A stretch of DNA of 43,662 bases from a virus, in the IMG/VR virus record IMGVR_UViG_3300020733_000435, positions 1-43,662 of that record; one strand, 5' to 3'. The notes under the pieces were generated by a model. It ran no database searches and was not told the DNA's origin. It worked only from the letters and a program-made list of their open reading frames with translations. Shown here piece after piece: positions 7,911-37,661 of the stretch. A program made the position numbers and the translations under genes. How positions within the stretch are numbered: position 1 is the stretch's first letter; each line of letters begins with the position of its first letter.

Positions 7911-8867
7911 ATGAACTTTAATACTATCCCACTCAAAGATATAACTCGTTTTGGACAACAAACTATGTTGGATCGTCCATTATTTAACATAAGTTGGATA
8001 TTGGGCAGATTTTGTAATTATAATTGTAGCTATTGTTGGCCCTATGCCCGCAGTGATAAAATGGATTATCAGCCATTTGAAGTCTACACTCATGCAGTAG
8101 ATGAAATCAAACGTCAAGCTCGCCAAAATGGATTTACTCAATTCCATTGGAGTTTCAGCGGAGGTGAGCCAACGGCATACAAACAACTGCCCGAACTGAT
8201 AAAGTATTTAGACGAAACAGTAAGTCCTTACCAAAGCATCCACATGACTACTAATTTGAGTCCTGGATCCAAATGGTGGAACAACTGGTGCAATATTACT
8301 AGCAGTCTACAGCGCCGTAGCATCACAGCTAGTTATCACGAAGAGTTCGCTAAGGAACAAGAGTTTGGAGATAAGTGCCTACAACTAATGTATGAACGTG
8401 TTCATGTAACTGTTAATCAAGTTATGGTACCTGACAAATTTTATGAAACACTAGAACGCTGTAATCGTCTGCGTGATAGAGGTATTAACGTAACACTCAA
8501 GCCGCAAAGCAATGATACTGCTACTGCTATTGTAGACGGCTATACACCCGAGATGATTACTATAATGCAAAACGACTTTGAACAGCAGGAAGGTTTCCAA
8601 ATAAGATTAACTGACGGTATCAAGGATTATTATATAGATCAAGCGGAACGTTTTAATGCGCTAGGCTTTAATCAATTTGCCGATTGGACTTGCAATGCAG
8701 GATATCAAAGTGTTATAATAAAAGGTAGTGAGGTTAAACGTGCTTATAGTTGTCACGAAGAGCCTTTGGGCAAAATAGAAAAATTTACTTTGTTTTCCAG
8801 CCCTAAAAAATGTGTGACTACTAGATGTGTTAGTAGTGCAGACAGTAAGATACCTAAGCAAAAATAA
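7911..8867 (+). CDS. Radical SAM protein (MoaA/SPASM-like, family A)
   Basis: A 318-residue radical SAM enzyme. CNYNCSYC (C35, C39, C42) holds the [4Fe-4S] cluster that cleaves S-adenosylmethionine, and FSGGEP (about 82-87) contacts the SAM amino group. The C-terminus has C-rich elements (DWTCNAGYQ, YSCHEEPL, KKCVTTRC) that could bind an auxiliary cluster as in SPASM/twitch domains. It opens the plus-strand block of nine genes and shares the W-x-L-G-R-x-C-N-Y-x-C pattern with the proteins at 11151, 16218 and 17182. Substrate unknown; peptide and small-molecule modifications are both known for such proteins. Confidence 0.88.
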   Translation: MNFNTIPLKDITRFGQQTMLDRPLFNISWILGRFCNYNCSYCWPYARSDKMDYQPFEVYTHAVDEIKRQARQNGFTQFHWSFSGGEPTAYKQLPELIKYLDETVSPYQSIHMTTNLSPGSKWWNNWCNITSSLQRRSITASYHEEFAKEQEFGDKCLQLMYERVHVTVNQVMVPDKFYETLERCNRLRDRGINVTLKPQSNDTATAIVDGYTPEMITIMQNDFEQQEGFQIRLTDGIKDYYIDQAERFNALGFNQFADWTCNAGYQSVIIKGSEVKRAYSCHEEPLGKIEKFTLFSSPKKCVTTRCVSSADSKIPKQK

Positions 8868-9496
8868 TGCAGAGACTAATAGCCTTCGGTGCTTCTAATA
8901 CTTACGGTCAAGGTTTAGAAGATTGTCATGTACCGCCATGCGATCCTGGACCATCACCTAGTAAATTTGCTTGGCCCTCACTCCTATCTCAACAAATGGG
9001 ATTGGAATGTAAAAACATGTCTGATCCGGGTGCTAGCAATGCTCATATAATTGAAGAGCTATTAAAATTTAAATTTGAGCCCGATGATATGATTGTAATT
9101 ATGTGGACTGATCCATACAGGGACATTCTTCATAAAAATGAAAAAGAAACAATAACACTAGCTCATTGGCAACAAGATCCTAGCATCAATATTAAAGAAT
9201 GGATTTTACTACACAACGATTACGACATGTCTTTAAGATCTTGGAAAACTATACATCATGCCTATGTTTATTTAAAATTATTAGGCAACCAATTTTACAT
9301 GCTCACAGACAACAAAGGAACTGAGTTCATTTCAACTAAGCCAGCATGGGCATCAGAAATAGAATTTCCTAATATATACATGTCGGACATTAGAAAAACA
9401 CATCCGGTTGCATTAGATGGTAGACATCCCGGAATAGAAGCACACGCCACTTTGGCAAAATTAATATACGACAACATCTTAAGTCATGCAAATTGA
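8867..9496 (+). CDS. SGNH hydrolase-like protein
   Basis: A 209-residue protein with block I FGASNTYGQG, where GAS replaces the usual GDS but keeps Ser10, a block II-like DPGASNAH, a block III-like IMWTDPYRD, and block V DGRHPGIEAH (D184, H187). The canonical Asn of block III is not obvious. It overlaps the radical SAM stop by one base (TAATG) and the methyltransferase start by 11 bases. It may remove or transfer acyl groups on the same substrate that the neighbouring enzymes modify; this is inference. Confidence 0.75.
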   Translation: MQRLIAFGASNTYGQGLEDCHVPPCDPGPSPSKFAWPSLLSQQMGLECKNMSDPGASNAHIIEELLKFKFEPDDMIVIMWTDPYRDILHKNEKETITLAHWQQDPSINIKEWILLHNDYDMSLRSWKTIHHAYVYLKLLGNQFYMLTDNKGTEFISTKPAWASEIEFPNIYMSDIRKTHPVALDGRHPGIEAHATLAKLIYDNILSHAN

Positions 9497-10085
9497 TACA
9501 GAACACCTACATCATTGGATGCAAGCTATCCGCAAAAGTCCCGAGCCCTTGCGGACCATGGATGCCTTTTGGAGTGGACAACTCAAAAGCAAAGAGTGGT
9601 TGATTGACAACTTAGATGAATATGTTGATCAGGCTTCTAGTATAGAAATATGCGCAGGCTGGGTAGGAGTGCTAGCCAGTATGTTATTTCAAAGTAACAT
9701 TCCAGTCACGCATATTGCTAGTTATGATATTGATCCTACTTGCAAATCTATTGCAGAAGAAATGAACAAGCTAGAAGAAATAGCAGGAAGGTTCCGTGCA
9801 AGTGTAGTAGATATTAGTCAACCAATGCATATGAGTGCTGATATTATTATTAACACCAGTTGTGAACATCTTACACAAGAGCAATACAACAGTTGGTTAA
9901 CCTACACTCCTAAAGATAGTTTGCTTGTCTTGCAAAGCAACAACTACGATATACCTGAACATGTTAGAACAGCCAGCAACTTAGATGATTTTATTAAACA
10001 AAGTCATATAACTGTTAAATGGGCCGGAGAACTTGCATTGCCTTTGTATACTCGCTATATGATTATAGGTACTAGATATGTTTAA
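9486..10085 (+). CDS. Class I SAM-dependent methyltransferase-like protein
   Basis: A 199-residue protein with a Rossmann-like signature: IEICAGWVGVLASML (motif I, with the glycine-rich loop loosened), SYDIDPTC (acidic end of beta 2), VVDISQP and DIIINTSCEHL (motif IV-like). These place it among class I methyltransferases, though the glycine loop is atypical. It overlaps the genes on both sides. A methyl acceptor cannot be told from sequence. Confidence 0.7.
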   Translation: MQIDTEHLHHWMQAIRKSPEPLRTMDAFWSGQLKSKEWLIDNLDEYVDQASSIEICAGWVGVLASMLFQSNIPVTHIASYDIDPTCKSIAEEMNKLEEIAGRFRASVVDISQPMHMSADIIINTSCEHLTQEQYNSWLTYTPKDSLLVLQSNNYDIPEHVRTASNLDDFIKQSHITVKWAGELALPLYTRYMIIGTRYV

Positions 10086-11154
10086 GTTTAATGAGCTACG
10101 ACAAATACATTTAGAAATAACCAACAACTGCCAAGCTAGTTGTCCTATGTGCAGTCGCAATCATCACGGCGGTATAGAAAATCCATTAATAAAAATAAAC
10201 AACTGGACCTTAGAACAGTTTCAAAATACCATCAACCAAGAAGTATTGGATCAAGTTGAGGCTTTATACTTCTGTGGAAATTTTGGTGATCCGTTGCTGA
10301 ACAATGATTTAATTGGCATGGTTGATTACACAGTTGATCACAAACCCGATATAGAAATTAGAATACACACTAACGGCAGTCTTAGAAATATTCAATGGTG
10401 GGAACAACTTGCTCGAGCATTGCCTAAAAATCATGTAGTAGTATTTGCCATTGACGGGCTAAGTGACACACATCATTTATATCGTATAGGTACAGATTAT
10501 AATCAAATACTTCGTAATGCAACAGCTTTCATACAAGCAGGCGGAATCGCTGAATGGGCATTTATTAGATTCAAACATAATGCACATCAAGTAGAAACTG
10601 CTAAGAAGATTGCGGCAGAATCTGGATTTCAAAGATTTGTAATGAAAGACAGCAGTAGATTTGTTTTAGACAAAAAGTTTCCTGTACTAAGTTCTCAAAG
10701 AGTCGTAAGCCATTTTCTCGAACCTGCAATAGAAAGTAAAATTGTTTTTATTGATCGTAAGGTGTTGGATAACTATCAACAAATTGTAGCCTCTAGCACA
10801 ATCGAATGTTATGCTCAGCAACAAAAAGAAATTTATATCGATGCGTTTGGAAGATTGTTTCCTTGTTGCTGGTTAGCTAGTACACCTTACAATTATACAG
10901 AAGACGGATCTGAAATATTAGAAGTTAGAAAAGTAATGACTGATCAGTATAACGACATGATCAAAGACTTTGGCGGGATAGATAATATTGATACAAAATA
11001 CAATAGTGTCAAATCTATAATAAACTCCACAGCCTATCAAACAGTATGGGATAGATATTGGTCAGATCCTAAGATGGTTACATGTGCTAGGGCATGTGGG
11101 GTCAATGCTTTGAGTAAACCTATCGATCAATTTATCGAGCGAGAAAGTTTATGA
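10078..11154 (+). CDS. Radical SAM/SPASM protein (family B, copy 1)
   Basis: A 358-residue protein. EITNNCQASCPMC gives C18, C22, C25; the GGEP motif is replaced by CGNFGDP. The C-terminal part has CYAQQQKEIYIDAFGRLFPCC and TCARACG, a SPASM-like auxiliary cluster region. It is a close paralogue of the protein at 13767-14846: the first 190 residues are largely the same, including RNxHGG, IHTNGS and FIRFKHNAHQV. SPASM proteins often modify peptides. It overlaps its neighbours by 8 and 4 nt and has no clear ribosome site. Confidence 0.9.
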   Translation: MFKFNELRQIHLEITNNCQASCPMCSRNHHGGIENPLIKINNWTLEQFQNTINQEVLDQVEALYFCGNFGDPLLNNDLIGMVDYTVDHKPDIEIRIHTNGSLRNIQWWEQLARALPKNHVVVFAIDGLSDTHHLYRIGTDYNQILRNATAFIQAGGIAEWAFIRFKHNAHQVETAKKIAAESGFQRFVMKDSSRFVLDKKFPVLSSQRVVSHFLEPAIESKIVFIDRKVLDNYQQIVASSTIECYAQQQKEIYIDAFGRLFPCCWLASTPYNYTEDGSEILEVRKVMTDQYNDMIKDFGGIDNIDTKYNSVKSIINSTAYQTVWDRYWSDPKMVTCARACGVNALSKPIDQFIERESL

Positions 11155-12242
11155 TTAAAACTACTGCCATTCGTAACACTGGCAACGAATCTTTTTCAGT
11201 CATTTGGGATACTGGTAGGAGATGTAACTACGACTGTTCGTATTGCGAATCATCTAGACACAATAATACCAGTAACTTTAAAAGTTTAGAAGAATTTAAA
11301 AAGACATTTGATTTTATTCAATCTTGGGCTAACTTATATAATTCTAAAAGAAAACAAACTACAACTACTAATATTAATTTTACAGGTGGTGAACCAACTG
11401 CTAATCCTAACTTTTGGAATTTACTAGACTACATTAAATCGCAACCTGAATATTACTATCTAGGATTAACTACTAACGGTGCTTGGGGAGAAAATTATTC
11501 TAAAAAAATAATTGACACAATTAATCATGTAACCATAAGTTATCATGCAGAAGCAGATCCTAAACTAAAAGAACGAGCAATAAAAAATATACTAGCGTTA
11601 TCTTCTACTGATATTCGCCTGCAGGTTAATGTAATGTTGCACATGGATCATTGGGAAGAAACCCTAGGTGTGTACAATCAATTAAAAGATAAGGGTATTG
11701 ATGTTAAACCTCGTCCAATCGGTGACGGTGCAATTACACGCAAAGGGTGGTTCATTGACGCAGATGGAACTAATCGCAGAACTAGTCACGAGTATACAGA
11801 AGAACAGCAAGCCTGGTTCTGGAATGAAATGGGACTACAAGGTAGCCCTAAATCAAAAGCAGAAGGAACTGAATTAGGTCGTGCTTGCTGTGGAGGCAGA
11901 TGCTTAGAAGGTAAAGTCGACGGTGAATGGCAGCCAATCAAATTAGTCAATACTAATTTTGAGGATTGGAAGTGCCTAGTTGATTGGTATTTTTTATATG
12001 TTGATCAAGAAACTAATCTAGTATATCATCATCAAACTTGTCAAGCATTGTATGACGGTGCCCGAGGACCGATTGGTAGTCTAGATGATAGTGCTAAACT
12101 GTTAAGTGATTTAAAACAACGCATTGAAAATAAAGATAAATTTATAGTATGCCCTAATAAAAGATGCGGTTGCGGAATGTGTGTTCCTAAAGCACAAGGA
12201 CTTGAAGATTTTATTAAGATTAAAGAATCAATAATAGCATGA
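11151..12242 (+). CDS. Radical SAM protein (family A)
   Basis: A 363-residue protein with RRCNYDCSYC (C25, C29, C32), NFTGGEPTANP and LTTNGAW, all radical SAM core motifs. The second half has further cysteines (GRACCGGRCLEGK, WKCLVDW, QTCQALYDG, NKRCGCGMC) enough for one or two auxiliary Fe-S clusters. It most resembles the minus-strand protein at 17182-18087 around CNYDCSYC. It is translationally coupled to both neighbours by ATGA. Confidence 0.88.
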   Translation: MIKTTAIRNTGNESFSVIWDTGRRCNYDCSYCESSRHNNTSNFKSLEEFKKTFDFIQSWANLYNSKRKQTTTTNINFTGGEPTANPNFWNLLDYIKSQPEYYYLGLTTNGAWGENYSKKIIDTINHVTISYHAEADPKLKERAIKNILALSSTDIRLQVNVMLHMDHWEETLGVYNQLKDKGIDVKPRPIGDGAITRKGWFIDADGTNRRTSHEYTEEQQAWFWNEMGLQGSPKSKAEGTELGRACCGGRCLEGKVDGEWQPIKLVNTNFEDWKCLVDWYFLYVDQETNLVYHHQTCQALYDGARGPIGSLDDSAKLLSDLKQRIENKDKFIVCPNKRCGCGMCVPKAQGLEDFIKIKESIIA

Positions 12243-13774
12243 ATCACATAATGATTTTTAGCCTAACTGGCAAGCGATGGGAAAGAGCTCTGTGGCCGCA
12301 TCGAGTGGCTACCTTCTTACGCATGAATGATTGGGACGCAGAAGTAGTCGACTTCACTGCGTTTTGGCAACTTGAAGAACTACAAGAACTAGTGCGTAGT
12401 AGAACAACTAACAAGACTGTAATGTTTTGTTTTGGTACTGCTTTTCTTAATCCCTGGAGTCCGTACCTAAATGAATTTATACTTTGGCTTAAGAAAGAAT
12501 ATCCTAGTATACCTGTAGTAGTGGGCGGTAATAACGCACTGACTACTCCTGCTGAAGGCGTAGACTATTGGGTTGATAGTTATGGAGAAAATGCTATCCT
12601 AGCATTGTGCCAACATCTTATCGGTACATTAGGTGCACCATTAATGACAGATCCTGCATTTTTTGGTAGCAAGAAAGTTATCAGAGGACTGCATCATTAT
12701 CCAAGTGCGCCATTAGACAGCTATCTAGTAGACTATGAAGCTCGTGACTTTATGAGTCCGTATGATTGTCCACAGATTGAAACAGCACGTGGTTGTATGT
12801 TTAGTTGCAGTTATTGTAACTTTCCTATCATAGGACAGGCAAAAGATGTAAGCGTAAGCAAAGAACAATTTAAACTGCAAATGCAAACAGGCTACGAAAA
12901 GTGGGGCATTAAGAACTGGCGTGTAATGGATGAAACATTTAACGACCGTCCTGAAAAGTTAGAGAAGTATGCTGAAGCTGTTGATGAACTAGGATACAAT
13001 CCTTGGATATGTGGATTTGCTCGTGGCGACCTAGTTGTTAAACACAGAGAACATTGGGACACTTATATTAGACTAGGATTCCTAGGGCATTCAATGGGCA
13101 TTGAAACATTTAATCACGAAGCAGGTAAACTTGTACGTAAAGGTATGGATCCTGATAAACTACAAACAGGACTATTAGAATTTCAAACCTATACAGATAT
13201 CCATGCTCCCCAACGCTACAGAGCTAACATACAGATGATATGTGGGATACCAGGGGAAACAAAAGAATCCTGGTATAAGAGTTTAGAATGGTTAAACACC
13301 CATTGGCTCAGACAAAGTGCTAGTGCGCATATTTTAGAAATAGGTGACTATGATGAAACTCTTACTAATCAAAGTCGTTTTACTCGAGAACTTATAGCCA
13401 ACGGTTTAGTTAAATTAGAAGCTAGATCTAATCCAGGATATGTAGTAACTAAAGACAGTAACAAGGATGTAGTATTTCAATCTACTACACCACGAGGCGG
13501 TGGAGTAGGTAGCACCAGGAATGACATTGTAATTTGGCAACATAAAACTATGGATTGGTATCAAGCAGAGGATCTTGTAAAAGAATTTTATTCTGCTGAT
13601 GGATTTAAAGGACTGCGTGGATGCAATCCATTCTTATCAGACAGACTATTCTTATATCATGAAACTAATCAGTATGAGGATATCTACAATTATAAGATAT
13701 CGTCAGTTGATACTGCGGATGTTAAGTTTAAGCAACATGTACAAAATTATATAGATAAGAAATTAAATGTTTAA
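12239..13774 (+). CDS. Cobalamin-type radical SAM protein (family C)
   Basis: A 511-residue protein, the largest radical SAM in the island. The first 130 residues have the layout of a B12-binding Rossmann domain: WPHRVATFLRMNDWDAEVVD, a TVMFCFGTAF strand and PVVVGGNNA. The base-off DxHxxG motif is not visible, so cobalamin binding may be lost. ETARGCMFSCSYC follows with C186, C190 and C193. QMICGIPGETKESW matches the late-core motif of B12-dependent and methylthiotransferase-like radical SAM enzymes. Such enzymes often methylate unactivated carbons. It sits between two SPASM-type genes. Confidence 0.85.
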   Translation: MNHIMIFSLTGKRWERALWPHRVATFLRMNDWDAEVVDFTAFWQLEELQELVRSRTTNKTVMFCFGTAFLNPWSPYLNEFILWLKKEYPSIPVVVGGNNALTTPAEGVDYWVDSYGENAILALCQHLIGTLGAPLMTDPAFFGSKKVIRGLHHYPSAPLDSYLVDYEARDFMSPYDCPQIETARGCMFSCSYCNFPIIGQAKDVSVSKEQFKLQMQTGYEKWGIKNWRVMDETFNDRPEKLEKYAEAVDELGYNPWICGFARGDLVVKHREHWDTYIRLGFLGHSMGIETFNHEAGKLVRKGMDPDKLQTGLLEFQTYTDIHAPQRYRANIQMICGIPGETKESWYKSLEWLNTHWLRQSASAHILEIGDYDETLTNQSRFTRELIANGLVKLEARSNPGYVVTKDSNKDVVFQSTTPRGGGVGSTRNDIVIWQHKTMDWYQAEDLVKEFYSADGFKGLRGCNPFLSDRLFLYHETNQYEDIYNYKISSVDTADVKFKQHVQNYIDKKLNV

Positions 13775-14846
13775 ATTTAATCAATTAGAAAAAATACAAG
13801 TTGAGATCACTAATCGATGTCAAGCTAGTTGCCCTATGTGTCCTAGAAACATACACGGGGGCATTGGTAATCCCTTACTTAAATTAAATGATTGGTCCTT
13901 TGATGATTTTAAAAAAATCATTTCCTACGATGTTTTAACTTATCTAAAAGAAATTAGTTTTTGCGGAGACTTTGGAGATCCAATACTCAACAACGATCTG
14001 ATTACAATGTGCAACTACTTGGCAGTGACTGCGCCTTCAATAAAACTACAAATACATACTAATGGTAGTGCAAGAAATCAAGCATGGTGGACAAAGTTAG
14101 CACAAAGTTTACCTAAACACCATACAGTTATATTTGCCATTGATGGGCTAGAAGATACACATTCAATTTATCGTATAGGAACAGACTACAATAAAATAAT
14201 TGAAAATGCACAAGCGTTCATAGCGGCGGGAGGAAATGCTGACTGGTGTTTTATTAGGTTTAAACATAATGCACATCAAGTTAGTCAAGCGCAAGCATTG
14301 AGCATAGAACTTGGATTCAACTCTTTTACAGTTAAGAACAGTAAACGATTCAATCGTCCTTTCCCTGTAGTTGATAAGAAAGGTAATGTACTTTATAATA
14401 TAGAACAACCCGAAGACAGTATCGTAGAATTTGTTGGTCGTAAACAAGTTGAAGGACACCAACATTGGGCTAACGCTGATCAAATCAACTGTCAATCAAT
14501 CAAAGATAAAGAATTGTATATTGACGCCCATTATTTGTTAAGCCCTTGTTGTATGATAGGAGCATTTTTGTATACTAACTATGACGTTGAGCTACTAAAG
14601 AATTACAATCTTTATGAAGAAGATTCTATAGTAGAAGAAGGTGCTCGAGTACAACAACAAGTGCTAGGACTTCCTGTACTTAATGTATTAGAATTGGGAC
14701 TTAAAAATATAGTTGAAACAGACAAATGGCAAACTATGTGGCAACGTAAATGGAAGGAAAAATCTAGCAGTACTTGTATATTAATGTGCGGGCCCAACAG
14801 CCCTTACATAAGTATTGATAACCAAGAAATAAAAGATGTCAGATAA
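13767..14846 (+). CDS. Radical SAM/SPASM protein (family B, copy 2)
   Basis: A 359-residue paralogue of the protein at 10078-11154. EITNRCQASCPMC gives C18, C22, C25; CGDFGDP stands in for GGEP; the C-terminal CQSIKDKELYIDAHYLLSPCC and TCILMCG supply SPASM-type cysteines. The divergence from copy 1 is concentrated in the last third, so the two may act on different sites or form a heterodimer. It overlaps the preceding gene by 8 nt and the next by 11. Confidence 0.9.
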   Translation: MFKFNQLEKIQVEITNRCQASCPMCPRNIHGGIGNPLLKLNDWSFDDFKKIISYDVLTYLKEISFCGDFGDPILNNDLITMCNYLAVTAPSIKLQIHTNGSARNQAWWTKLAQSLPKHHTVIFAIDGLEDTHSIYRIGTDYNKIIENAQAFIAAGGNADWCFIRFKHNAHQVSQAQALSIELGFNSFTVKNSKRFNRPFPVVDKKGNVLYNIEQPEDSIVEFVGRKQVEGHQHWANADQINCQSIKDKELYIDAHYLLSPCCMIGAFLYTNYDVELLKNYNLYEEDSIVEEGARVQQQVLGLPVLNVLELGLKNIVETDKWQTMWQRKWKEKSSSTCILMCGPNSPYISIDNQEIKDVR

Positions 14847-24688: not shown

Positions 24689-24720
24689 TTTAACTAATTT
24701 TTTTTATAAACGGAGCCCTT

Positions 24721-28146: not shown

Positions 28147-28154
28147 GTGGCAAA

Positions 28155-28162
28155 TATTTATT
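28155..28162 (-). promoter_or_regulatory. Late-type promoter box AATAAATA
   Basis: Minus-strand AATAAATA ends 8 nt before the ATG at 28146; one mismatch to TATAAATA. No ribosome site lies between. Confidence 0.4.
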
Positions 28163-28177
28163 GATAATTACTATACT

Positions 28178-28861: not shown

Positions 28862-29388
28862 TTCCCTGGTCTGAAGATTTAGATCTTACTGATTTTTATT
28901 CCGAAGCTAATCGCAAAGGATTCGTAAACAATGCTAGCCAAGAGGCCATGATTGATTGTTTCCGTAATGAAAAACATTGGTGTGTATGGATACTGTATTA
29001 CAATGATCGTGCTGTAGGTAGTGTTGCCGCACACAGCATGGAAGAAGGATATCGAATCTGTGCTAGAACTTGTGTCCTTACACATTTAATACCAACTAAT
29101 ACATTAAGGACTCGCAGTCAAATTATTAATCATCAACATATTACAGCACAATTCTTTATGCCTGTGTGTATTATGTGGGCACCCCCTTGGGAAGATTTGT
29201 ATATAACAAGCCACCCTAGTGAAGTAGGTACACAAAGGCTTGTGCATAATATATGGGCTCCTAGTTTAGAAAAAACAGGTGTCCTTACGCGAGCGTTTGA
29301 AAAAGAATATCGCGGACATGTACAAACATTTTGGAGATTAAATAGTTTTGTATTTTTTGAACAGTTGGATAAGGTCAAGCAATGGTAG
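28849..29388 (+). CDS. GNAT-like phage protein
   Basis: A 179-residue protein. WCVWILYYNDRAVGSVAAHS and YRICARTCVLTHLIP look like strands 2-4 of a GCN5-type acetyltransferase, although the acetyl-CoA pyrophosphate loop (Q/R-x-x-G-x-G/A) is not clear. HQHITAQFFMP and SEVGTQRLVHNIWAP are distinctive; I recall closely similar unnamed proteins from marine T4-like phages. Acyl transfer is therefore a hypothesis. It is coupled to both neighbours. Confidence 0.62.
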   Translation: MYKIIPWSEDLDLTDFYSEANRKGFVNNASQEAMIDCFRNEKHWCVWILYYNDRAVGSVAAHSMEEGYRICARTCVLTHLIPTNTLRTRSQIINHQHITAQFFMPVCIMWAPPWEDLYITSHPSEVGTQRLVHNIWAPSLEKTGVLTRAFEKEYRGHVQTFWRLNSFVFFEQLDKVKQW

Positions 29389-30830
29389 ATAAATTTAATA
29401 CCCTAAAACAAAAATCCATAGTATGTTGTATACTAGATAATATGGATACGTACCAAAGCGGCTGGGCTAGGGAAATATCTATTAATCTTACCGACTTTAT
29501 GATACACAGGTTTGCATTAAAATCTTTTGATATTTTTATAGGAAAAGACGAAGATGAATTGTTAACAGCATCTGCACAAGACGGATATAGTCATGCTGTT
29601 GTAATCAATGCCGGAACATCATTCGGGCTATCGGACAGAATTTTTAAAGCTATCGAAAATATCTGCAAGGAAGAATTTTTTATTGCAGGACATATCTTAG
29701 ATCGTTCAGGACACTCCTATTACGGCAATGCCGGTTTTGAATTGCATCAGCAATTTTATATTGTTAATCTTGCAGAGTACACTGGATTAGGATGCCCTTT
29801 TGTAGGATGTGAAGAATGGGAAAGCTATACACAAATTGCTCCTTTACGTAGTAAAGAATGTTTATATGATGACCCAGAGGTGGCAGCTTGGATTAGACCT
29901 GGTACTGAAGAAAAGACCTATGATGTAAAATTACATGGATGGCACATACTTAATACAGCGTTGCTGGCTGACAAAAAATTAATAGATTTAGGTAAAGAAA
30001 TTCGAGACAGTAAAAAGTATATCTATTACGAATATGATCATGTGTTTACTAGAGAAGTGAGTTCGTTATATTACAATCAATTCTTTTGTCATAACGTGTT
30101 TGCTCCGTTCAATTCTGATAGTCTACAAAAAGATTTACAATTTGATGGGCCTGTAGAGCAATATGTAACTGTAGGTATTGGGTTACATTGGATTAAAAAT
30201 TTAATACAGCTAGGTTGTACTAGAGAGACTAAAGTAATTTTTACAGACATCAACTTTAACTGCTTACGATTTATGAAAGCAATGGTAGAAGATTGGGATG
30301 GAACAAACTATGTAGATTTTTATCAACAGTACTTGTCCATACAGCCTAACGGAAGTACGTTTGATCCACATGCACATACAGGTTCCTGGAATCAAGAGTG
30401 GAATAATTTTGTATCGTCTTTTGATGATTGGGAAAGTGTGTGGCAATCAATTAGATCGTTAACATTTGACTTTGTACTAATTGATTATACTAGTACCTAT
30501 AATTTTGATTGGTTACAGCCGGGCAAAAAAACTTTTGTAAACCTAAGTGATCTATTTAATCACGCACCTTTTATTGTTACGCAGAGTTTAAAATATAGAA
30601 TTGCTAGCGAAAATAGATTATTCGACAAACTAGAAAAGAAAGATCCAAATATAAAACTGCTAGTTACTTCACGTGCGGCTAGTGGTTTTAATAATACTAT
30701 GCAAGTAACATATGGCAATGTAAAAGATTTTGATAGGACCGATACTAATACATTAAAAACACCGGTATGGCATATTCAGGACTGGAAGGTAATTTGTATG
30801 ATTACAGGAAAACCTAAACTATTAGGGTAG
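29382..30830 (+). CDS. Large two-domain phage protein, unknown
   Basis: A 482-residue protein. The N-terminal half has SIVCCILDNMDTYQSGWARE, then AVVINAGTSFGLSDRIFKAI and FFIAGHILDR, a pattern reminiscent of a GT-A glycosyltransferase fold but without a clear DxD. The C-terminal half has VTVGIGLHWIKNLIQLG, then VIFTDINFNCLRFMKAM and DFVLIDYTSTYNFDWL, which resembles a class I methyltransferase with a loose motif I. Both assignments are by eye. A transferase acting on the same target as the surrounding enzymes would fit. Its end overlaps the convergent gene by 9 nt. Confidence 0.65.
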   Translation: MVDKFNTLKQKSIVCCILDNMDTYQSGWAREISINLTDFMIHRFALKSFDIFIGKDEDELLTASAQDGYSHAVVINAGTSFGLSDRIFKAIENICKEEFFIAGHILDRSGHSYYGNAGFELHQQFYIVNLAEYTGLGCPFVGCEEWESYTQIAPLRSKECLYDDPEVAAWIRPGTEEKTYDVKLHGWHILNTALLADKKLIDLGKEIRDSKKYIYYEYDHVFTREVSSLYYNQFFCHNVFAPFNSDSLQKDLQFDGPVEQYVTVGIGLHWIKNLIQLGCTRETKVIFTDINFNCLRFMKAMVEDWDGTNYVDFYQQYLSIQPNGSTFDPHAHTGSWNQEWNNFVSSFDDWESVWQSIRSLTFDFVLIDYTSTYNFDWLQPGKKTFVNLSDLFNHAPFIVTQSLKYRIASENRLFDKLEKKDPNIKLLVTSRAASGFNNTMQVTYGNVKDFDRTDTNTLKTPVWHIQDWKVICMITGKPKLLG

Positions 30831-31475
30831 AGAATTGAGTGTTATAAATTTGCCTGTTGCATTTGCTAACGTTGCAGATTTTGTAATTAACTGTTTCCAT
30901 TCATCTGTTGCATCGTGCCTTGCAACAATTAGATGATACCTATCTTCATCACTGTCATTATACACAGCATGATCATAACTAATATTCATAGCATAAGGTA
31001 GACCTGGCTCCATATATAAATCAGGACTACCATCTCCCCATTTCCAAATACATTGTTTAGGATTGTTTAGAGGTATGTTTATATTTTCAGTTAGCCTAAT
31101 GCCCGATTTAGAATCGTTATGCATACCAATATACCCACCTGCCTCTAGCAACATAAAACGTACTCGCCCGTATTTCTTACAAGGGAATACATTTTGTAAG
31201 AAACTCATTGTAATGGGACATTCTTTTGAAGCCGCAGTCCATTTAAAATCTCTTGCGGCATCTGCTGGAGTAGCATAGCCGTAGTCTTCCCAGTTCTCGT
31301 GCAAGTGCTCATCGAGTCCGTATAATGCTAGACTTTTCCATCCTTCGTGTTTTTCATCTCCGCGATGCTCTGTGTATCTATCTTTTAATGCCTGTGCTTC
31401 TGCCAGCATACCTTCATAGGGTACAGATATATCTAAGATTAAATATTTGGCAGTTGTTTCAAAATACTCTTTCAT
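30822..31475 (-). CDS. Aspartyl/asparaginyl beta-hydroxylase-like protein
   Basis: A 217-residue protein. FMLLEAGGYIGMHNDSKSG gives an H-x-D pair, ENINIPLNNPKQCIWKWGDG a central strand pair, and PYAMNISYDHAVYNDSDEDRYHLIV the distal His and the 2OG Arg. The set matches the Asp/Asn beta-hydroxylase family better than TauD. It is the last gene of a six-gene minus block; its start overlaps the first TauD-like gene by ATGA. Confidence 0.8.
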   Translation of the reverse strand: MKEYFETTAKYLILDISVPYEGMLAEAQALKDRYTEHRGDEKHEGWKSLALYGLDEHLHENWEDYGYATPADAARDFKWTAASKECPITMSFLQNVFPCKKYGRVRFMLLEAGGYIGMHNDSKSGIRLTENINIPLNNPKQCIWKWGDGSPDLYMEPGLPYAMNISYDHAVYNDSDEDRYHLIVARHDATDEWKQLITKSATLANATGKFITLNSLP

Positions 31476-32302
31476 TTATAATCTTGATCCGGAAAATTAA
31501 ACACTGCTCGATGCAACAATCTAGTAGCCATATCTGGGAATGGCCAACGCTTATGGATTCCAAGCCACTGTTCGCTTAAAGTTAAATCACCATCTTCCCA
31601 ATCGTGGTGATACAAGTATTTTTCTTGAGTTGTGTGTTCGATCAAAGGCTTCATCCACTCTGTACTTTCTTCTTCAGTCATGCCTTCAATATTGAGTACC
31701 TGTAAAAATGGAAAAAATAATCCAGTTATGCCTGCTATATTAGTATGAATTAAATTTGGAGTAAATGCTTGCCTTCCTGGATCTCGATCAGTCCAATGGC
31801 ACATGTTAAGTTTGATATCAACTAATGTATCTTTCCATTCCTGAGGCAAATCCTGATATGAAAGAACATTATTGTTCCACGTTGTTCTAGATCCCATTGT
31901 ACCTCTAACTCCGTACAACCAAACTAGAGATCTGCGTTCTGCTCTAGTAGCATCATTGCAGTGCCATTGCAACTCGTCAGTCTCATAAGCTATTCCAGGT
32001 TGGCCATTTTCATCTAGTTCTGCAGTCACACGTAGTATATGATTATCAGTGTTTGCTACGACCGCAGTTTTAAATCCAGCATCTGCTTTATTTGCAAACG
32101 GATAAAATTGATATGGATCCTTGAACATTTTAATAACTCTTACTTCTTCTTCTAAAGTAAGAAATTGTTTTCGAGCAATTACGCAAGTGTGAGTGGATAA
32201 TAATTTTGCCACATGATTAACATCCTCTTGAGTAATTGTTTTAAAATCAACATCATCGAGTATTACTGTCCATCCGTTTTCGTGTATATGATAATTTACC
32301 AT
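31472..32302 (-). CDS. TauD-like oxygenase, HxN variant (copy 1)
   Basis: A 276-residue protein from ATG 32302 (MVNYHIHENGWTVIL), with AAGGAA upstream; an alternative ATG at 32326 enters the next gene. It has the TauD/TfdA layout: ELQWHCND, SLVWLYGVRG, SRTTWNNNVLSY, the distal-His strand SEQWLGIHKRW and ATRLLHRAVF with the 2OG Arg. The carboxylate of the H-x-D iron motif is Asn (H-C-N), which would weaken or alter iron binding. It is one of four tandem paralogues. Confidence 0.85.
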   Translation of the reverse strand: MVNYHIHENGWTVILDDVDFKTITQEDVNHVAKLLSTHTCVIARKQFLTLEEEVRVIKMFKDPYQFYPFANKADAGFKTAVVANTDNHILRVTAELDENGQPGIAYETDELQWHCNDATRAERRSLVWLYGVRGTMGSRTTWNNNVLSYQDLPQEWKDTLVDIKLNMCHWTDRDPGRQAFTPNLIHTNIAGITGLFFPFLQVLNIEGMTEEESTEWMKPLIEHTTQEKYLYHHDWEDGDLTLSEQWLGIHKRWPFPDMATRLLHRAVFNFPDQDYK

Positions 32303-32303
32303 A

Positions 32304-33134
32304 TTATTCCTTAATTGTATATTCAAAAGTTGCTCTATGTAATAGTCTATTTAAAATATTTGCACATGGCCATCGCATGTGTAAACTAGTCCATTGATCA
32401 GAAATTACTACATCTCCATTATCCCACTTGTGTGTGTATTGATACTTAGCTTGTGTAAGATGTTTTATCATAGGAATAATAATAGCCTTACTTTTCTCTC
32501 GATCCATACCAACAAAATTATAAATCTGATTAAATGGAAAATACAATCTTCCATTTTGAATTATTTTAGGATTATAGCCCTCTACAATTTTTCCATGCGG
32601 CCATTGTGTACCATCTGGATCTTTGTAAAATTTTGCAATATTAAAATCAGTATCGCGTAGCATTTCCGCAGTTAGCGTACTTAATAAATCTTTTGTTTCT
32701 TGATCTAACTCATTGTAAGATAATAAATTATTAATCCAACTAGTTTTAGATCCTTCTGCACCACGAACAGCATGTAACCATATCAGAGAAGTTTTATTAG
32801 TTAACTGCCATTGAAAATCATGATGCCATGCCATTTCTTCTTCATGCTCAGCAATTCCTTGTATGCCATTCTCTCCTGCATATCCGCCAACACGTAATAT
32901 TAATCCTTCGGATCCATCTATCGAAATATCTGGATATCCTAAGTCTGTTGGATTGTTAAACATTTTGATAATGCGTAATTCATCTTCTACAGACAACGAT
33001 TGTTTTTTAATCACAACAACAGTATTACTATACAACAGTTTAGATATTTGATCAATATCATCTTGCGTAGCAGAACGAAGATCAAAATTGTCTACAATAA
33101 CTGTCCATCCGTTATCGTGTATCTTGTATTTCAT
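32304..33134 (-). CDS. TauD-like oxygenase with intact HxD (copy 2)
   Basis: A 276-residue paralogue. EMAWHHDFQWQL keeps the classical H-x-D pair, SLIWLHAVRGAEGSKTSWINN aligns with the substrate and 2OG strands, and SDQWTSLHMRW with LNRLLHRATF gives the distal His and Arg. It is therefore the only one of the four with the complete metal triad. It overlaps the next gene by ATGA. TauD relatives hydroxylate small molecules such as taurine; the substrate here is unknown. Confidence 0.88.
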   Translation of the reverse strand: MKYKIHDNGWTVIVDNFDLRSATQDDIDQISKLLYSNTVVVIKKQSLSVEDELRIIKMFNNPTDLGYPDISIDGSEGLILRVGGYAGENGIQGIAEHEEEMAWHHDFQWQLTNKTSLIWLHAVRGAEGSKTSWINNLLSYNELDQETKDLLSTLTAEMLRDTDFNIAKFYKDPDGTQWPHGKIVEGYNPKIIQNGRLYFPFNQIYNFVGMDREKSKAIIIPMIKHLTQAKYQYTHKWDNGDVVISDQWTSLHMRWPCANILNRLLHRATFEYTIKE

Positions 33135-33976
33135 TTGTAGTCCTGGTCGGGAAAATCAAAAACAGCACGGTGCAATAAACGTGTCGCAATTTTTTCAAAG
33201 CGCCATCTTTTGTGTATGCCTAACCACTGCTCACTAATTACTAAATCGCCATCCTGCCAGTCATGATGATAACAATATTTTTCTTGTACAGTATAATCGG
33301 CAAGTTCATTAATTAAGGCTTTACTTTCATCTTTAGTCATTCCTACAAAATGACTAATTTGTAAAAAGGGGAAAAACAATCCTGTCTTTCCTGCATTGTT
33401 TGTATGTACGACACTAGGTGTATAATTTTCTACAGCAATACCACCTTCGCCCTTTTCAAGTTTCTCGGCATTTTCCATGCCCTTTTTAGTGACCATTTTC
33501 AATCCAGATAATCGATCTTTCATAGATTGATCTAAATCATTATAAGTCATGATATTATTATTCCAGCTGGTCCTGGATCCAGCAGTTCCCCTAACACCAT
33601 ACAACCAAACTAACGGACTACGATCTTCTTTATAAGGATGATTGCAGTGCCACGTCATTTCGTCTACGTATCCAGCGATACCTTCTATGCCATGCTCGTT
33701 TAATTCCCCAGTAACTCGTGTTATCATACCGTCAGTTCCAGGAACCCAATAATGCGGATAGTTTTCATCCCCTGGCTCTATAAAGACTTCAGGATCTTTA
33801 AACATTTTAATCACACGCAATTCTTCTTCAACTGATAGAAATTGATTTCTTACTACTACACAAGTATTTGTAGCCACTAGTCGAGCTATGTGATTAACAT
33901 CATCTTGAGTAATTGTTTTAAGGTCAACATCATCTAATATTACGGTCCACCCGTTTTCGTGTAAGTGATAATTCAT
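33131..33976 (-). CDS. TauD-like oxygenase, HxN variant (copy 3)
   Basis: A 281-residue paralogue. EMTWHCNHPYKED has H-C-N where H-x-D is expected, with LVWLYGVRGTAGSRTSWNNN, SEQWLGIHKRW and ATRLLHRAVFDFPDQDYK conserved. It most resembles copy 1, including the closing FPDQDYK. The start MNYHLHENGWTVILDDVDL is shared by the family. It directly abuts copy 4 and shares its boundary base. Confidence 0.85.
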   Translation of the reverse strand: MNYHLHENGWTVILDDVDLKTITQDDVNHIARLVATNTCVVVRNQFLSVEEELRVIKMFKDPEVFIEPGDENYPHYWVPGTDGMITRVTGELNEHGIEGIAGYVDEMTWHCNHPYKEDRSPLVWLYGVRGTAGSRTSWNNNIMTYNDLDQSMKDRLSGLKMVTKKGMENAEKLEKGEGGIAVENYTPSVVHTNNAGKTGLFFPFLQISHFVGMTKDESKALINELADYTVQEKYCYHHDWQDGDLVISEQWLGIHKRWRFEKIATRLLHRAVFDFPDQDYK

Positions 33977-34821
33977 TATTCTATTCCTTGATAATTTTGA
34001 TCTGGATAATCTACTGCGGCTCTATGTAATACACGAGTTTCTAACGAAACAAATTTCCATCGTTTATGAACACCTAGCCATTGATCGCTTATAGAAATAT
34101 CCCCATCATCCCAATCATGGTGATACAAATATTTTTCTTGTAATACATGATCAATTAATGGCTGTATAAGTTTTAAAGATTCTTCTCTAGACATTCCTAC
34201 AAAATGATCAATATCATACACAGGAAAATAAAGTCCAGTTTGTCCAGCATTGTTTGTATAAACAAAATCAAATTCGTGTTTATCATTGACCCAGGATGCA
34301 GGTTGATGCCCATCTGACATCTCTGGACTTAGCACTATTAATTTTAATTTCTTTAGTTGTTCTTTAGTATCATTGTCAAGATCGTTATACGCTAGAATAT
34401 TATTGTTCCAACTAGTGCGAGAATCTACAGTTCCCCGAACTCCGTATAACCAAATTATTGGACTACGATTAGGATCCCATGGCAAATTATTATGCCAATC
34501 AAAATCTCCTGGATTGGCTCCTATACCAGTATGTCCGTGCTCGTTACGTTCAGCTGTTACTCTGCAGATAATTCCTTCTGGATCGACTGAGCAATGTTTA
34601 AATTTTAAATCTGTAGGCTGAAACAATGGCTTAGGATTCTTAAACATTTTTAAAATTCTTAATTCATTTTCTAAAGTTAGATTTTGTTTCTTAGCAATTA
34701 CACAAGTATTTGTTGCCACTAGGCGTGCTATGTGGTTAACATCTTCTTGTGTTAGTGTATTAAAATCAACATCGTCTAGAATAACAGTCCAACCATTTTC
34801 GTGTATGTGATAATTTATCAT
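33976..34821 (-). CDS. TauD-like oxygenase, HxN variant (copy 4)
   Basis: A 281-residue paralogue. DFDWHNNLPWDPNRSP carries H-N-N instead of H-x-D; IIWLYGVRGTVDSRTSWNNN, SDQWLGVHKRW and LETRVLHRAAVDYPDQNY are conserved. AAAGGAATTAC gives a good ribosome site, unlike most island genes. It is the first oxygenase translated in the array and follows the SDR-like gene by 9 nt. Confidence 0.85.
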   Translation of the reverse strand: MINYHIHENGWTVILDDVDFNTLTQEDVNHIARLVATNTCVIAKKQNLTLENELRILKMFKNPKPLFQPTDLKFKHCSVDPEGIICRVTAERNEHGHTGIGANPGDFDWHNNLPWDPNRSPIIWLYGVRGTVDSRTSWNNNILAYNDLDNDTKEQLKKLKLIVLSPEMSDGHQPASWVNDKHEFDFVYTNNAGQTGLYFPVYDIDHFVGMSREESLKLIQPLIDHVLQEKYLYHHDWDDGDISISDQWLGVHKRWKFVSLETRVLHRAAVDYPDQNYQGIE

Positions 34822-34830
34822 GTAATTCCT

Positions 34831-35418
34831 TTACGCATAAGGTTCTCTAGTTGCACGTTCTGCTAATGAATTTCTAATGTAATCGGATGATTGCTGTATG
34901 CCAATAATTGGTATTTCAAATGGAGATTCTATAATCCATTTTATAGCATTTGCAATGTGCATAGGGTCCATAGTCGGGTCACTCCCAGGACTGGTTGCCT
35001 GAAATCCGCCTACTACTATGTGAGTAGTTTTAAAATTTTCATTGTTTAACTTAAGGCTTGTTTTTCTTAAACTAATCTTATCAGCAGTATAAATTGGTTC
35101 TACTTTTGTTAAAATTTCGTTGTCTTCATTTATACTACCTATGTTAATTACATGCCCACTTGTCCAAACTTCCGAAGCAATTTTTAATATGCGTTCTTGT
35201 ACACCATAGGTTACCCAAGAGTAATTGATTAATATGTTGAAATTAGCAATTTTAGATCTTAAACGATCTTCAAGCTCGCTAGTAAACGGATTAAAGTTAT
35301 AACCGTTTGATCTCGATATAAATTCAGTCGCCGGATAAATTTTTTGAATAGATTGTGCAATTCCCCTATCCATTGGATTTCCAGTACACAGTATTTTATA
35401 TTGAGTCGTATCTTGCAT
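34831..35418 (-). CDS. SDR-like Rossmann protein, possibly degenerate
   Basis: A 195-residue protein. KILCTGNPMDRGIAQSI resembles the nucleotide-binding TGxxxGIG turn of short-chain dehydrogenases in altered form; NILINYSWV sits where NNAG occurs; INIGSINED and YTADKISLRKTSL give a Ser and a YxxxK pair at the catalytic place. The protein is shorter than the usual 250 residues. Oxidoreductase activity with NAD(P) is plausible. It leads the six-gene minus block; its upstream sequence holds TATAAATG running into the ATG. Confidence 0.65.
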   Translation of the reverse strand: MQDTTQYKILCTGNPMDRGIAQSIQKIYPATEFISRSNGYNFNPFTSELEDRLRSKIANFNILINYSWVTYGVQERILKIASEVWTSGHVINIGSINEDNEILTKVEPIYTADKISLRKTSLKLNNENFKTTHIVVGGFQATSPGSDPTMDPMHIANAIKWIIESPFEIPIIGIQQSSDYIRNSLAERATREPYA

Positions 35419-35435
35419 TTATATACTTATTTAAA

Positions 35436-35443: not shown

Positions 35444-35447
35444 GACA

Positions 35448-36107
35448 ATGATTGATAATGAACCCTGGGAACACATAATCATTGATGATTTTTTTGAGAA
35501 ACACGATTTTGATAAAATATCAATGGCCTGTATCAACTTACAGGAAAAATATAAAGATCGAATAGTCACAGCTGACTCATGTCTGAGTTTTGCAGAAGTA
35601 TATGACGTAATCGGTGAGGATGTGTTTGAAATTATTTTGAAATCAAACAGGGCATTATTAGATACGATTGATCAATACCCCGTACATAGAAAATTTAAGC
35701 AATACATAAGTTTCCCAACATTTCACTTGCTACCTCCAAATGTTCCTCCCCAAAAGGTACACGATGAAGCATACGATAAATCTATAAGTGTTGTAGTTTA
35801 CTTGTACCCAGACAGTAGTGTAGGGACTGCTTTATTTAAATCTCAATTAAGAGATTCGTTCGTTAAAGAAGTAGAATGGAAACCTAACAGAGCTATGATA
35901 TTTTGTGGTAAAGAAAATGTAACATGGCATGATTTTTATTCTAGAGAAAATCCAAGGATTACATTAAATTTCTTTGTTCGACAATTAACCTCAACTGACG
36001 TTGCGGAACAAGACGGTAAGTATTATTTTACAGGAATGGCTGGACCAAAAACTTTTATGCCGAAGCATTTAATTACTAGATTAACAGGAAGTTTATTTAG
36101 ACTATGA
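35448..36107 (+). CDS. 2OG-Fe(II) oxygenase
   Basis: A 219-residue protein of the prolyl-hydroxylase-like type. WEHIIIDDFF opens the fold; PQKVHDEAYDKSISVVVYLYP holds H-x-E as the iron pair; VEWKPNRAMIFCGKENVTWHDFY supplies the distal His and PRITLNFFV the 2OG Arg. Such proteins are common in marine T4-like phages, often near tail genes. It leads a three-gene plus block next to the fibre gene. Confidence 0.82.
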   Translation: MIDNEPWEHIIIDDFFEKHDFDKISMACINLQEKYKDRIVTADSCLSFAEVYDVIGEDVFEIILKSNRALLDTIDQYPVHRKFKQYISFPTFHLLPPNVPPQKVHDEAYDKSISVVVYLYPDSSVGTALFKSQLRDSFVKEVEWKPNRAMIFCGKENVTWHDFYSRENPRITLNFFVRQLTSTDVAEQDGKYYFTGMAGPKTFMPKHLITRLTGSLFRL

Positions 36108-36688
36108 TAGCCGCAGGATTAAATTTAGATATCGACTACGAAAAAATGTCTGCTGAATTGTTAGCTCTACAATCAAGGGCAACAGCATTTTCTTATAAAA
36201 CTGATGAATCAAAAGAAACAGTTACAGCATACAGTCTATTTTTACGCAAGTCATCTGAGCCAACTGCTTATAGTTATAGGGGTGCTAAATCTGCAGATTT
36301 TTCTTCTTGGTCTTGGGATGAAACACTAGATATGCCTTACACTCGATCAGTGATTGAAAGTATGCCCTATACTAAATTAGGAACTGTTCGAATTGTGTAT
36401 TTCCCCAATATACCATGCATGGAACACACAGATTGGGACAACGCCGATGATACTACTCACACTTTAGGATTAAGTATTATACCTAGCACGGGAAACACAC
36501 ACTGTAACGTGTGGTCTGAAAAGAAACAAGGATATGTTTCTATTCCTGGAAATGCTATGCTGTTAAATGATTCGATTCCTCATTGGGTTCCAAAATCTGA
36601 AGGAACTCGTATTACTATGAGAATCTTTGGAGACATAGATTATAGTTGGTTTAAAGATAAAATAGACTATGGATCATATTACCTTTAA
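36104..36688 (+). CDS. Aspartyl/asparaginyl beta-hydroxylase-like protein
   Basis: A 194-residue protein. CMEHTDWDNADDTTHTLGLSI gives H-x-D, then CNVWSEKKQGYVSIPGNAMLL, DSIPHWVPKSEGTRITMRIFGD with the distal His and Arg. The layout agrees with the other Asp/Asn hydroxylase-like proteins in this island (21013, 24721, 30822). It overlaps its neighbours by 4 and 20 nt. Confidence 0.78.
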   Translation: MIAAGLNLDIDYEKMSAELLALQSRATAFSYKTDESKETVTAYSLFLRKSSEPTAYSYRGAKSADFSSWSWDETLDMPYTRSVIESMPYTKLGTVRIVYFPNIPCMEHTDWDNADDTTHTLGLSIIPSTGNTHCNVWSEKKQGYVSIPGNAMLLNDSIPHWVPKSEGTRITMRIFGDIDYSWFKDKIDYGSYYL

Positions 36689-37661
36689 ACTAAAAGTCAC
36701 CAGTGATGATAATTTTATACATTGGAATGATCTACAAGAGCACATAAAAAATATCATTGTTTCTGTAGGACTGCATCCTGCATGGTTCCAACTTAGTATG
36801 ATTGATCTGCAGGAACTAGAGCACAAATCATTTAACAACGTATTATCAGCTACATATAATCTTAAAGAAAAAATACTTTATAAAACTTGTAGAATTGATG
36901 ATTGTACATTGGCGCAAAACATGTACGATAAATTTTTACACGAAAATTCTAAAATGATTTTAGATGCTAAAAAATTAGGATTAGAATTCCTTCCTTTAGA
37001 AATTGAACGTAATGTTATTCCTAACATAGAACTTATCAACAAAACTTTGTCTGCACTAACGTCTACAAGTATTCCTTCTTGTGATTTTTCATTGTTAGAA
37101 AATTTATTACCATTGCAAGTAGTTGATACAGATTACGGTAAATTGTTTGTAAAAAAAGATTATGTTGAAGTTTGGTTTGATAAAGGACACACTGACTATA
37201 TCTGTAATTTTGATGTCGAACTTAAGAAGTTTTATTATGCAATGTATAAGGAAAATATTGTAGACAGTTCTATAATCAGATTTGCCTATTTACACAAATA
37301 TGATTTTACTCAACAACAACCTATGCATATAAGCATTGCATGGCCAACAGAAGTGCAAGGAAAATTTTATAATGAAATCGAAATTGATATAGTAGAATAC
37401 ATTGATCAAGTTACAGAACTGATTTCTAAATGGAGTACTGTAACTAGTTTGTTTCCTAACGATCCTATCCGACTTGAGAACAGGATGAAAGATAATGTTG
37501 GATTCTATTTTATATTGTTAGGAAGCAAGCTAGACCATACACTAAGTGAGTTCATCGATTTGCAATTAGAATATTTGGCACAAATAACCGAATACTTGTG
37601 CCTTCCTAACAAATTAGATTATGCTCAAACTAAATGGGTTAGCTTAAACGATACCAACTAG
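36669..37661 (+). CDS. Large hypothetical phage protein
   Basis: A 330-residue protein with no motif that I recognise. The first part is helical and includes DCTLAQNMYDKFLHEN, which resembles a stretch of the protein at 18075; the second part has DYVEVWFDKGHTDYICNFD and HKYDFTQQQPMHISIAWP. Its last 23 nt overlap the end of the fibre gene on the other strand. It may be a structural or adaptor protein for the neighbouring hydroxylases. Confidence 0.62.
   Translation: MDHITFKLKVTSDDNFIHWNDLQEHIKNIIVSVGLHPAWFQLSMIDLQELEHKSFNNVLSATYNLKEKILYKTCRIDDCTLAQNMYDKFLHENSKMILDAKKLGLEFLPLEIERNVIPNIELINKTLSALTSTSIPSCDFSLLENLLPLQVVDTDYGKLFVKKDYVEVWFDKGHTDYICNFDVELKKFYYAMYKENIVDSSIIRFAYLHKYDFTQQQPMHISIAWPTEVQGKFYNEIEIDIVEYIDQVTELISKWSTVTSLFPNDPIRLENRMKDNVGFYFILLGSKLDHTLSEFIDLQLEYLAQITEYLCLPNKLDYAQTKWVSLNDTN

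Follow-up and report, generated by a model that had tools for sequence, protein, structure and literature searches.

An island of radical SAM and 2OG-Fe(II)-like genes beside a tail-fibre gene in T4-like phages: a candidate host-recognition module

A linear virus record of 43.7 kb from IMG/VR (IMGVR_UViG_3300020733_000435; its whole stretch of 43,662 nt is called the window here) carries at positions 7911-37661 an island in which 24 of the 35 genes encode radical S-adenosylmethionine (rSAM) or 2-oxoglutarate (2OG)-Fe(II)-like proteins (11 and 13, respectively). Both classes are present in all 15 related viral contigs that were annotated in detail, and their motifs are conserved in orthologs, which argues that the set in the window is not due to chance. 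Our reading, held tentatively and a little short of even confidence, is that the island is a host-recognition or surface-modification module of T4-like aquatic phages, which would tailor a rare sugar or a glycoconjugate on the fibre or on the surface of the infected cell.

The island spans 29.8 kb, of which 99.6% is coding, and its largest intergenic gap is 56 bp. Its genes (labelled A1 to I3) are arranged in about 10 strand-alternating runs rather than as a single operon. The GC content is ~0.33-0.38 within the island vs 0.39-0.41 outside, as would fit a segment that had been acquired or exchanged.

Linkage and exchange of the island among related viruses

Viral relatives were collected from IMG/VR with A8, which gave 80 loci, and with A1, which gave at least 561 relatives. 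Orthologs were counted over the 80 loci, which are often partial. The 15 detailed contigs have 7-15 rSAM and 3-13 2OG genes each, mostly interleaved in one island; the rSAM/2OG counts are 7/5 in G021, 7/8 in G003, 11/3 in G011 and 15/13 in G008. Some members lie off the main cluster, as in G005 at 13 and 94 kb. Across 24 contigs, a search with PF04055 found 6-15 rSAM genes per contig. A preliminary description of the window had proposed a dedicated modification pathway, an idea that scattering of these genes in relatives would have undermined. They form instead a linked, conserved module in 15 of 15 contigs, and a dedicated pathway is the best reading of such a module.

The core A1-A3-A4-A8-B1-B3-B4-C1-F1-G1-G2 is repeated in many loci in a similar order, and the flanks are fixed as well. 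One border is formed by genes for an Mtd_N tail/fibre protein (579 aa; 37639..39378, - strand; PF18454 5e-10) and a metallophosphoesterase (201 aa; 39495..40100, - strand; PF12850 2e-6) that is conserved beyond Mtd. The opposite border is formed by f_133 (133 aa, function unassigned; 7002..7403, - strand), whose homologs adjoin the island in 8 other contigs. The Mtd_N open reading frame (ORF) borders the island in 10 of the 15 contigs, G011 having additional rSAM genes past it, and the C-terminal part of the fibre protein varies among phages. The island occupies a fixed site, with a conserved block of small genes on one side and the Mtd_N tail-fibre gene on the other. The content between the flanks is exchangeable. 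A6 is ~85% identical (median) between loci vs 50-60% for its neighbours and a median of 51% for A4, and its position differs from locus to locus, indicating that cassettes move between phages.

Carriers of the island are T4-like phages, and they are widespread in IMG/VR. A 163-kb relative, G003, has genes for a T4-type gp43-type DNA polymerase (phrog_262), a baseplate connector, a fibre and ribonucleotide reductase; its polymerase is nearest to that of Sinorhizobium phage Phosso (49%). With the Mtd_N border, these genes provide features of a host-recognition cluster (HRC), namely, a T4-like genome and a variable island beside fibre genes. Matches of A6, A8 and F1 in named phages were absent or remote. 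At its right end, the window has five tRNA genes (Cys, Gly, Thr, Ala and Asn; 41505-43658).

Enzymes of the island and their active-site motifs

PF04055 matches 11 ORFs within the island and none elsewhere in the window (profile search, E 1e-17 to 5.5e-8), the same number of rSAM ORFs that the preliminary description had counted. In the orthologs of all 11, the CxxxCxxC cysteines show at least 95% conservation. Ten score above the Pfam cut-off. The eleventh, A7 (359 aa, a paralog of A4; 13767..14846, + strand; PF04055 1e-5), falls slightly under it; it has the conserved CxxxCxxC and is matched by rSAM models of NCBIfam. The proteins fall into several architectures: two are of the N-terminal-twitch type, one is B12-rSAM-like, two have the HMPTM zinc ribbon PF23545, and six are shorter. 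The twitch proteins, A8 (461 aa; 14836..16221, + strand) and B3 (421 aa with SPASM, PF13186 4e-8; 18874..20139, - strand), exceed the 170-bit cut-off of the curated twitch model NF033640 with 382 and 340 bits. The B12-type protein A6 (511 aa; 12239..13774, + strand; PF04055 2e-12) has a PhpK/HpnJ-like architecture with a weak PF02310 match. F2 (375 aa; 26049..27176, - strand; PF23545 1e-13, PF04055 2e-12) and F3 (345 aa; 27109..28146, - strand; PF23545 5e-14, PF04055 4e-14) reach 51 and 52 bits with the zinc ribbon model, whose cut-off is 27; by this N-terminal domain they are HMPTM-type rSAM proteins with a predicted methyltransferase role.

Among the shorter proteins, the core protein A1 (318 aa; 7911..8867, + strand; PF04055 1e-12), encoded at one island border, has the motif CNYNCSYC and conserved C261/C281/C301/C306, and has orthologs in 52 of the 80 loci. 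A4 (358 aa; 10078..11154, + strand; 5e-10), with conserved C-terminal cysteines, is found in 74 of 80. In B1, also of the core (301 aa; 17182..18087, - strand; 2e-16), C239/C259/C282/C287/C289 are conserved. A5 (363 aa; 11151..12242, + strand; 3e-11), A9 (327 aa; 16218..17201, + strand; 2e-13) and A7 complete the group. Most of the short proteins have four or five such additional conserved cysteines, which suggests auxiliary clusters. Some named functions were considered and rejected: A6 scores 59 bits with TIGR04479 (PhpK/B12 rSAM P-methyltransferase), whose cut-off is 600, the best score for prokaryotic viperin is 60.5 bits (NF038283, cut-off 180), and QueE-type models score far under cut-off.

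The 13 2OG-like proteins are backed unevenly, by Pfam, by motif conservation and by one fold search. Four TauD (PF02668) and two Asp_Arg_Hydrox (PF05118) proteins score above the Pfam cut-off. The former are H2 (284 aa; 31472..32326; 3e-17), H3 (276 aa; 32304..33134; 1e-24), H4 (281 aa; 33131..33976; 3e-25) and H5 (281 aa; 33976..34821; 6e-19), and the latter are the Asp/Asn beta-hydroxylase-like H1 (217 aa; 30822..31475; 2e-15) and D2 (172 aa; 23361..23879; 2e-5), all on the - strand. C1 (221 aa; 21013..21678, + strand) matches PF05118 under the cut-off (0.002) and has conserved H81xD83...H125. The other six have no Pfam match within the E-value limit. Three of them have a conserved HxD...H: C3 (179 aa; 22300..22839, + strand; H104xD106...H161), D1 (177 aa; 22828..23361, - strand; H102xD104...H154, R164) and the core protein F1 (268 aa; 25265..26071, - strand; H178xD180...H234). 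The best Foldseek matches of a low-confidence model of F1 (pLDDT 69) are nearly all 2OG oxygenases. The remaining three, E1 (198 aa; 24721..25317, + strand), I1 (219 aa; 35448..36107, + strand; HxE...H) and I2 (194 aa; 36104..36688, + strand; HxD...H), were called by inspection of motifs in the window sequence, and their homologs are few or absent in the sets compared. E1 contains HID...H...R and has homologs in 9 loci, its triad being less than 95% conserved in an alignment of 7 rows. Homology to the double-stranded beta-helix is thus indicated by Pfam for six proteins, by a sub-cut-off match for one, by Foldseek on the low-confidence model for one and by motif alone for five. Apart from these 13, a weak fourteenth 2OG-Fe(II)-like ORF lies beyond the island (41858-42418; phrog_81, E 3e-4) and has an 86%-identical homolog near Mtd_N in G002.

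The HxD...H motif is conserved in orthologs of C1, C3, D1, D2, F1 and H1, and the HxD/E...H iron triad is retained in 10 of the 13 proteins; the facial triad is therefore not common to the full set. The preliminary count of thirteen stands, with support that differs from protein to protein, but the canonical iron-binding carboxylate is absent from at least three of them, H2 (WHCN), H4 (WHCN) and H5 (WHNN), the TauD paralogs in which HxN replaces HxD. The same HxN is present in TauD-like proteins of G005, G009, G013 and G017 and of one Bdellovibrionota contig, so that it is a recurrent substitution and not a lone mutation. HxD is kept by H3 (WHHD) and by two marine TauD homologs, and one homolog in G008 has HxE. 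AspH is a known case of a 2OG hydroxylase without the iron-binding carboxylate (PMC13168262). By this precedent, the HxN paralogs could be active enzymes.

The preliminary description also saw a paradox in combining rSAM enzymes, whose clusters are oxygen-sensitive, with 2OG enzymes, which need oxygen. The objection is weak. The rSAM enzymes MoaA, BioB and LipA operate in aerobic cells, and natural-product pathways employ both classes, so oxygen does not exclude their functioning together. Moreover, a gene for an A-type Fe-S carrier (PF01521) is present in 8 of 18 records (7 viral contigs and the MED685 bin discussed below), which fits a high Fe-S demand.

The other genes of the island include several putative transferases. 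D3 is a SAM methyltransferase (270 aa; 23852..24664, - strand; PF13649 6e-7), and the core protein A3 (199 aa; 9486..10085, + strand; no Pfam match), with orthologs in 66 of 80 loci, is methyltransferase-like by eye. G3 (482 aa; 29382..30830, + strand) has a C-terminal methyltransferase-like domain and possibly a GT-A-like N-terminal half; with its AlphaFold2 model (pLDDT 78) Foldseek found methyltransferases (E 5e-4) and, weakly, LH3 and Mimivirus R699. A comparison of G3 with a DxD-motif protein of the bacterial islands described below gave no homology. The core protein G1 (238 aa; 28145..28861, + strand) is kinase-like by a marginal profile match to protein kinase TTK (E 9e-4); C2 (226 aa; 21675..22355, + strand; no Pfam match) resembles it by eye and may also be kinase-like. 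G2 (179 aa; 28849..29388, + strand; no Pfam match), conserved adjoining G1, is GNAT-like by eye. B4 (283 aa; 20123..20974, - strand) resembles pyridoxal phosphate (PLP) fold-I proteins, with conserved D159 and K187 of an SKG motif and a marginal PDB similarity. A2 (209 aa; 8867..9496, + strand) is an SGNH/GDSL-like hydrolase with a GASNTYG motif (PF00657 2e-4, under cut-off), and H6 (195 aa; 34831..35418, - strand), Rossmann/SDR-like by eye, has a similar ORF in the Bdellovibrionia island. B2 (285 aa; 18075..18932, - strand) and I3 (330 aa; 36669..37661, + strand) have no Pfam match and no assigned function. Sequence searches of PDB with F1, G3, B4 and the bacterial DxD protein returned nothing useful.

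Bacterial homologs, sugar genes and the likely product

Homologs in bacterial genomes were found with a profile of the twitch-rSAM alignment, whereas B3 alone gave no match in the bacterial genome contigs searched. The closest are from Bdellovibrionota, barring a 3.5-kb contig (L159) that is probably stray phage DNA. A 936-kb contig of Bdellovibrionia (JAUHWH010000001; L160/G025:C15) carries at ~638-666 kb an island that contains some twelve rSAM genes, among them homologs of A1, A4, A5 and A8, as well as A6-, B4-, A3- and H6-like genes. The rSAM chemistry of the island is therefore not confined to phages. The bacterial island differs from that of the window in being chromosomal, in adjoining serS (named by eye) and in having hardly any 2OG gene; no Mtd_N or fibre gene is present in the stretch read. 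It also encodes an unnamed family of DGDN-motif proteins that is found in phages too. Two further loci, L166 and L184, were recovered as contigs of bacterial metagenome-assembled genomes. L166 lies on a 108-kb marine contig (G029:C3; L285-L287) binned with the gammaproteobacterium MED685, which has ~15 rSAM genes and the look of a T4-like phage; it was excluded as cellular evidence because of its phage-like genes (ThyX and fibre-like, by eye).

In relatives, the rSAM families of the island are associated with sugar genes. Four of them, G003 (at A1), G006, G011 and G012, have NAD-sugar epimerase genes within the island or on its border. In G002, G004 and freshwater relatives there is a cassette that is led by a different NF033640 rSAM and also encodes RmlC (PF00908 1e-34), a thiamine pyrophosphate (TPP) E1 subunit and three epimerases; in G002 it is located ~14 kb past the island. 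Of 79 viral loci of this rSAM, 17 have RmlC and 24 have an epimerase gene within 8 kb of it. The twitch-rSAM/RmlC/TPP E1/epimerase cassette is conserved at L100:12760-20000 and L322:7959-15062, in L322 with fibre-like and DxD glycosyltransferase-like genes (by eye) directly upstream. On G029:C3, homologs of A1, A4, A8 and B1 stand beside genes for an epimerase, a carbamoyltransferase (1e-52), an FkbM methyltransferase and an aminotransferase, and an rSAM is fused to GFO_IDH_MocA. In three genomes of Bdellovibrionota, 6 of 18 rSAM clusters have GT2 genes within 10 kb, vs 2.2 expected by a rough Poisson estimate; the phage islands, including those of the four epimerase-bearing relatives, contain none. 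By association, the sugar genes of relatives would favour a glycan or glycoconjugate as the product.

In such a pathway, the rSAM enzymes would deoxygenate, epimerise, dehydrogenate or methylate at unactivated C-H positions, the 2OG oxygenases would hydroxylate and desaturate, and the transferases would add methyl, acyl, phosphoryl and possibly glycosyl groups. Acting in series, they could yield an uncommon sugar or glycoconjugate bearing many modifications, to be displayed on the phage fibre or the surface of the infected cell. Cassettes swapped among phages, in the manner of O-antigen-type loci, would change the structure of the product. Several points weigh against a sugar product. The island of the window has no recognised glycosyltransferase or epimerase, with weak hints only in G3 and H6, and the glycosyltransferase-like half of G3 is itself weakly supported. 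Sugar genes occur in a minority of related loci, which makes the argument one of guilt by association. Proteins, moreover, are frequent substrates of rSAM enzymes of the SPASM/twitch type and of 2OG enzymes that resemble Asp/Asn hydroxylases. A more far-reaching proposal, possible but doubtful, is that combinatorial tailoring by phages, with ~10 rSAM and up to 13 2OG-type enzymes and a core common to Bdellovibrionota chromosomes, makes a new class of hyper-modified glycan or fibre, and includes a TauD clade that functions with Asn where the iron-binding Asp would be.

The main rival, which we regard as unlikely though to be taken seriously, is that the enzymes act directly on a structural protein of the phage, be it the Mtd_N fibre or another virion protein, and modify it after translation so as to stabilise or diversify the fibre. 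The rSAM enzymes would then introduce crosslinks, epimerisations and methylations, and the 2OG enzymes would hydroxylate side chains. The frequent fibre gene at the island border agrees with this, as do the auxiliary-cluster cysteines and the N-terminal twitch and SPASM features, which resemble those of many protein-modifying rSAMs. PF05118 members hydroxylate Asp/Asn of proteins, and the weak structural neighbours of F1 include AspH and prolyl hydroxylases. However, no conserved substrate is evident in a fibre whose C-terminal part varies, the Bdellovibrionia island lacks a fibre gene in the stretch read, the PqqD/RRE domain (PF05402) was found in 0 of 17 viral contigs, and the sugar genes of relatives would be left unexplained. 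It seems improbable that the genes form a biosynthetic cluster whose product, made during infection, is a small molecule that diffuses (antibiotic, siderophore or signal). The mix of B12-rSAM, 2OG, PLP, methyltransferase, kinase-like, GNAT-like and SGNH proteins does resemble natural-product tailoring sets, and a homologous island is found on a bacterial chromosome, but no scaffold enzyme (polyketide synthase, non-ribosomal peptide synthetase or cyclase) was recognised among the scanned proteins, the dense coding leaves no intergenic room for an unannotated precursor, and the location beside a tail gene is fixed. A cluster for ribosomally synthesised and post-translationally modified peptides was rejected, there being no precursor-peptide gene in the intergenic space and no PF05402 match, from which divergent RREs could escape. 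The same two results, with the epimerase, carbamoyltransferase, FkbM and sugar-cassette genes of relatives, make a glycan or a glycosylated fibre more likely than a peptide natural product.

Two other readings are less probable still. The island might comprise metabolic genes that raise host fitness at low oxygen with no single product, a proposal that Timms et al. made for phages of Campylobacter, and exchangeable rSAM modules are indeed present in CP220 and CPt10 (PMC2853527). This is very improbable, given that 2OG enzymes require oxygen and that tight core synteny and fixed flanks indicate a common task. Least probable of all is hypermodification of DNA or tRNA to protect the phage genome or translation. 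T4-like phages frequently modify their DNA, rSAM and 2OG enzymes take part in known base-modification pathways, and this phage encodes tRNAs; but no TET/JBP, 5-hydroxymethyluracil kinase or DNA glycosyltransferase was among the named matches, the QueE-type scores are low as noted, and the island adjoins a tail gene and has homologous islands on chromosomes.

Published systems and significance

The preliminary description considered so dense a mixture undescribed in a phage. For the rSAM-rich part this does not hold: rSAM-rich phages, rSAM cassettes in host-recognition islands and cyanophages with multiple 2OG genes are already known (PMC2853527, PMC5332604, PMC7029224, PMC3037559). The Campylobacter phages CP220 and CPt10 (Firehammervirus) are T4-like and have 11 and 12 rSAM genes, respectively, several of which lie close to baseplate genes in an island that can be exchanged (PMC2853527). 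Their module differs in having a glycine amidinotransferase and in showing only superfamily-level similarity to B1, and hidden Markov models of the window families found no 2OG gene in the 30-kb stretch of CPt10. The HRCs of pelagimyophages and cyanomyophages resemble the island in being hypervariable, in their tail fibres and in their rSAM cassettes in T4-like aquatic phages; cassettes and glycosyltransferases occur together in the pelagimyophage islands, and an Asp/Asn hydroxylase is a core gene of the phages with HRCs (PMC7029224). As reported, their hallmarks are glycosyltransferases and fibres, unlike the rSAM and 2OG-like majority of the window island. The marine T4-like TARA_ERS488813_N000010 (183 kb) resembles the carriers in having 12 rSAM genes and an Fe-S carrier; the available part of its description reports no 2OG enrichment, and it is set apart on that description only (PMC5332604). 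T4-like cyanophages have up to five 2OG genes, fewer than the window, and the word 'radical' is absent from the main text of that study (PMC3037559). The coupling of rSAM genes with many 2OG genes is the part for which no precedent was found: in the open-access literature (subscription papers and preprints being outside its scope), no report was found of a dense rSAM and 2OG phage island, nor a description of the fixed Mtd_N border, of the set of core genes or of the HxN TauD clade.

The core genes A1, A4, A8, B1, B3 and F1 offer concrete candidates for testing, and the HxN clade bears on how strict the need of 2OG-type enzymes for an iron-binding carboxylate is. If our reading is correct, abundant freshwater phages would hold dense, exchangeable radical and oxygenase chemistry at their host-recognition locus, and the diversification of phage surfaces would be tied to enzyme families that have mostly been studied in natural-product pathways.

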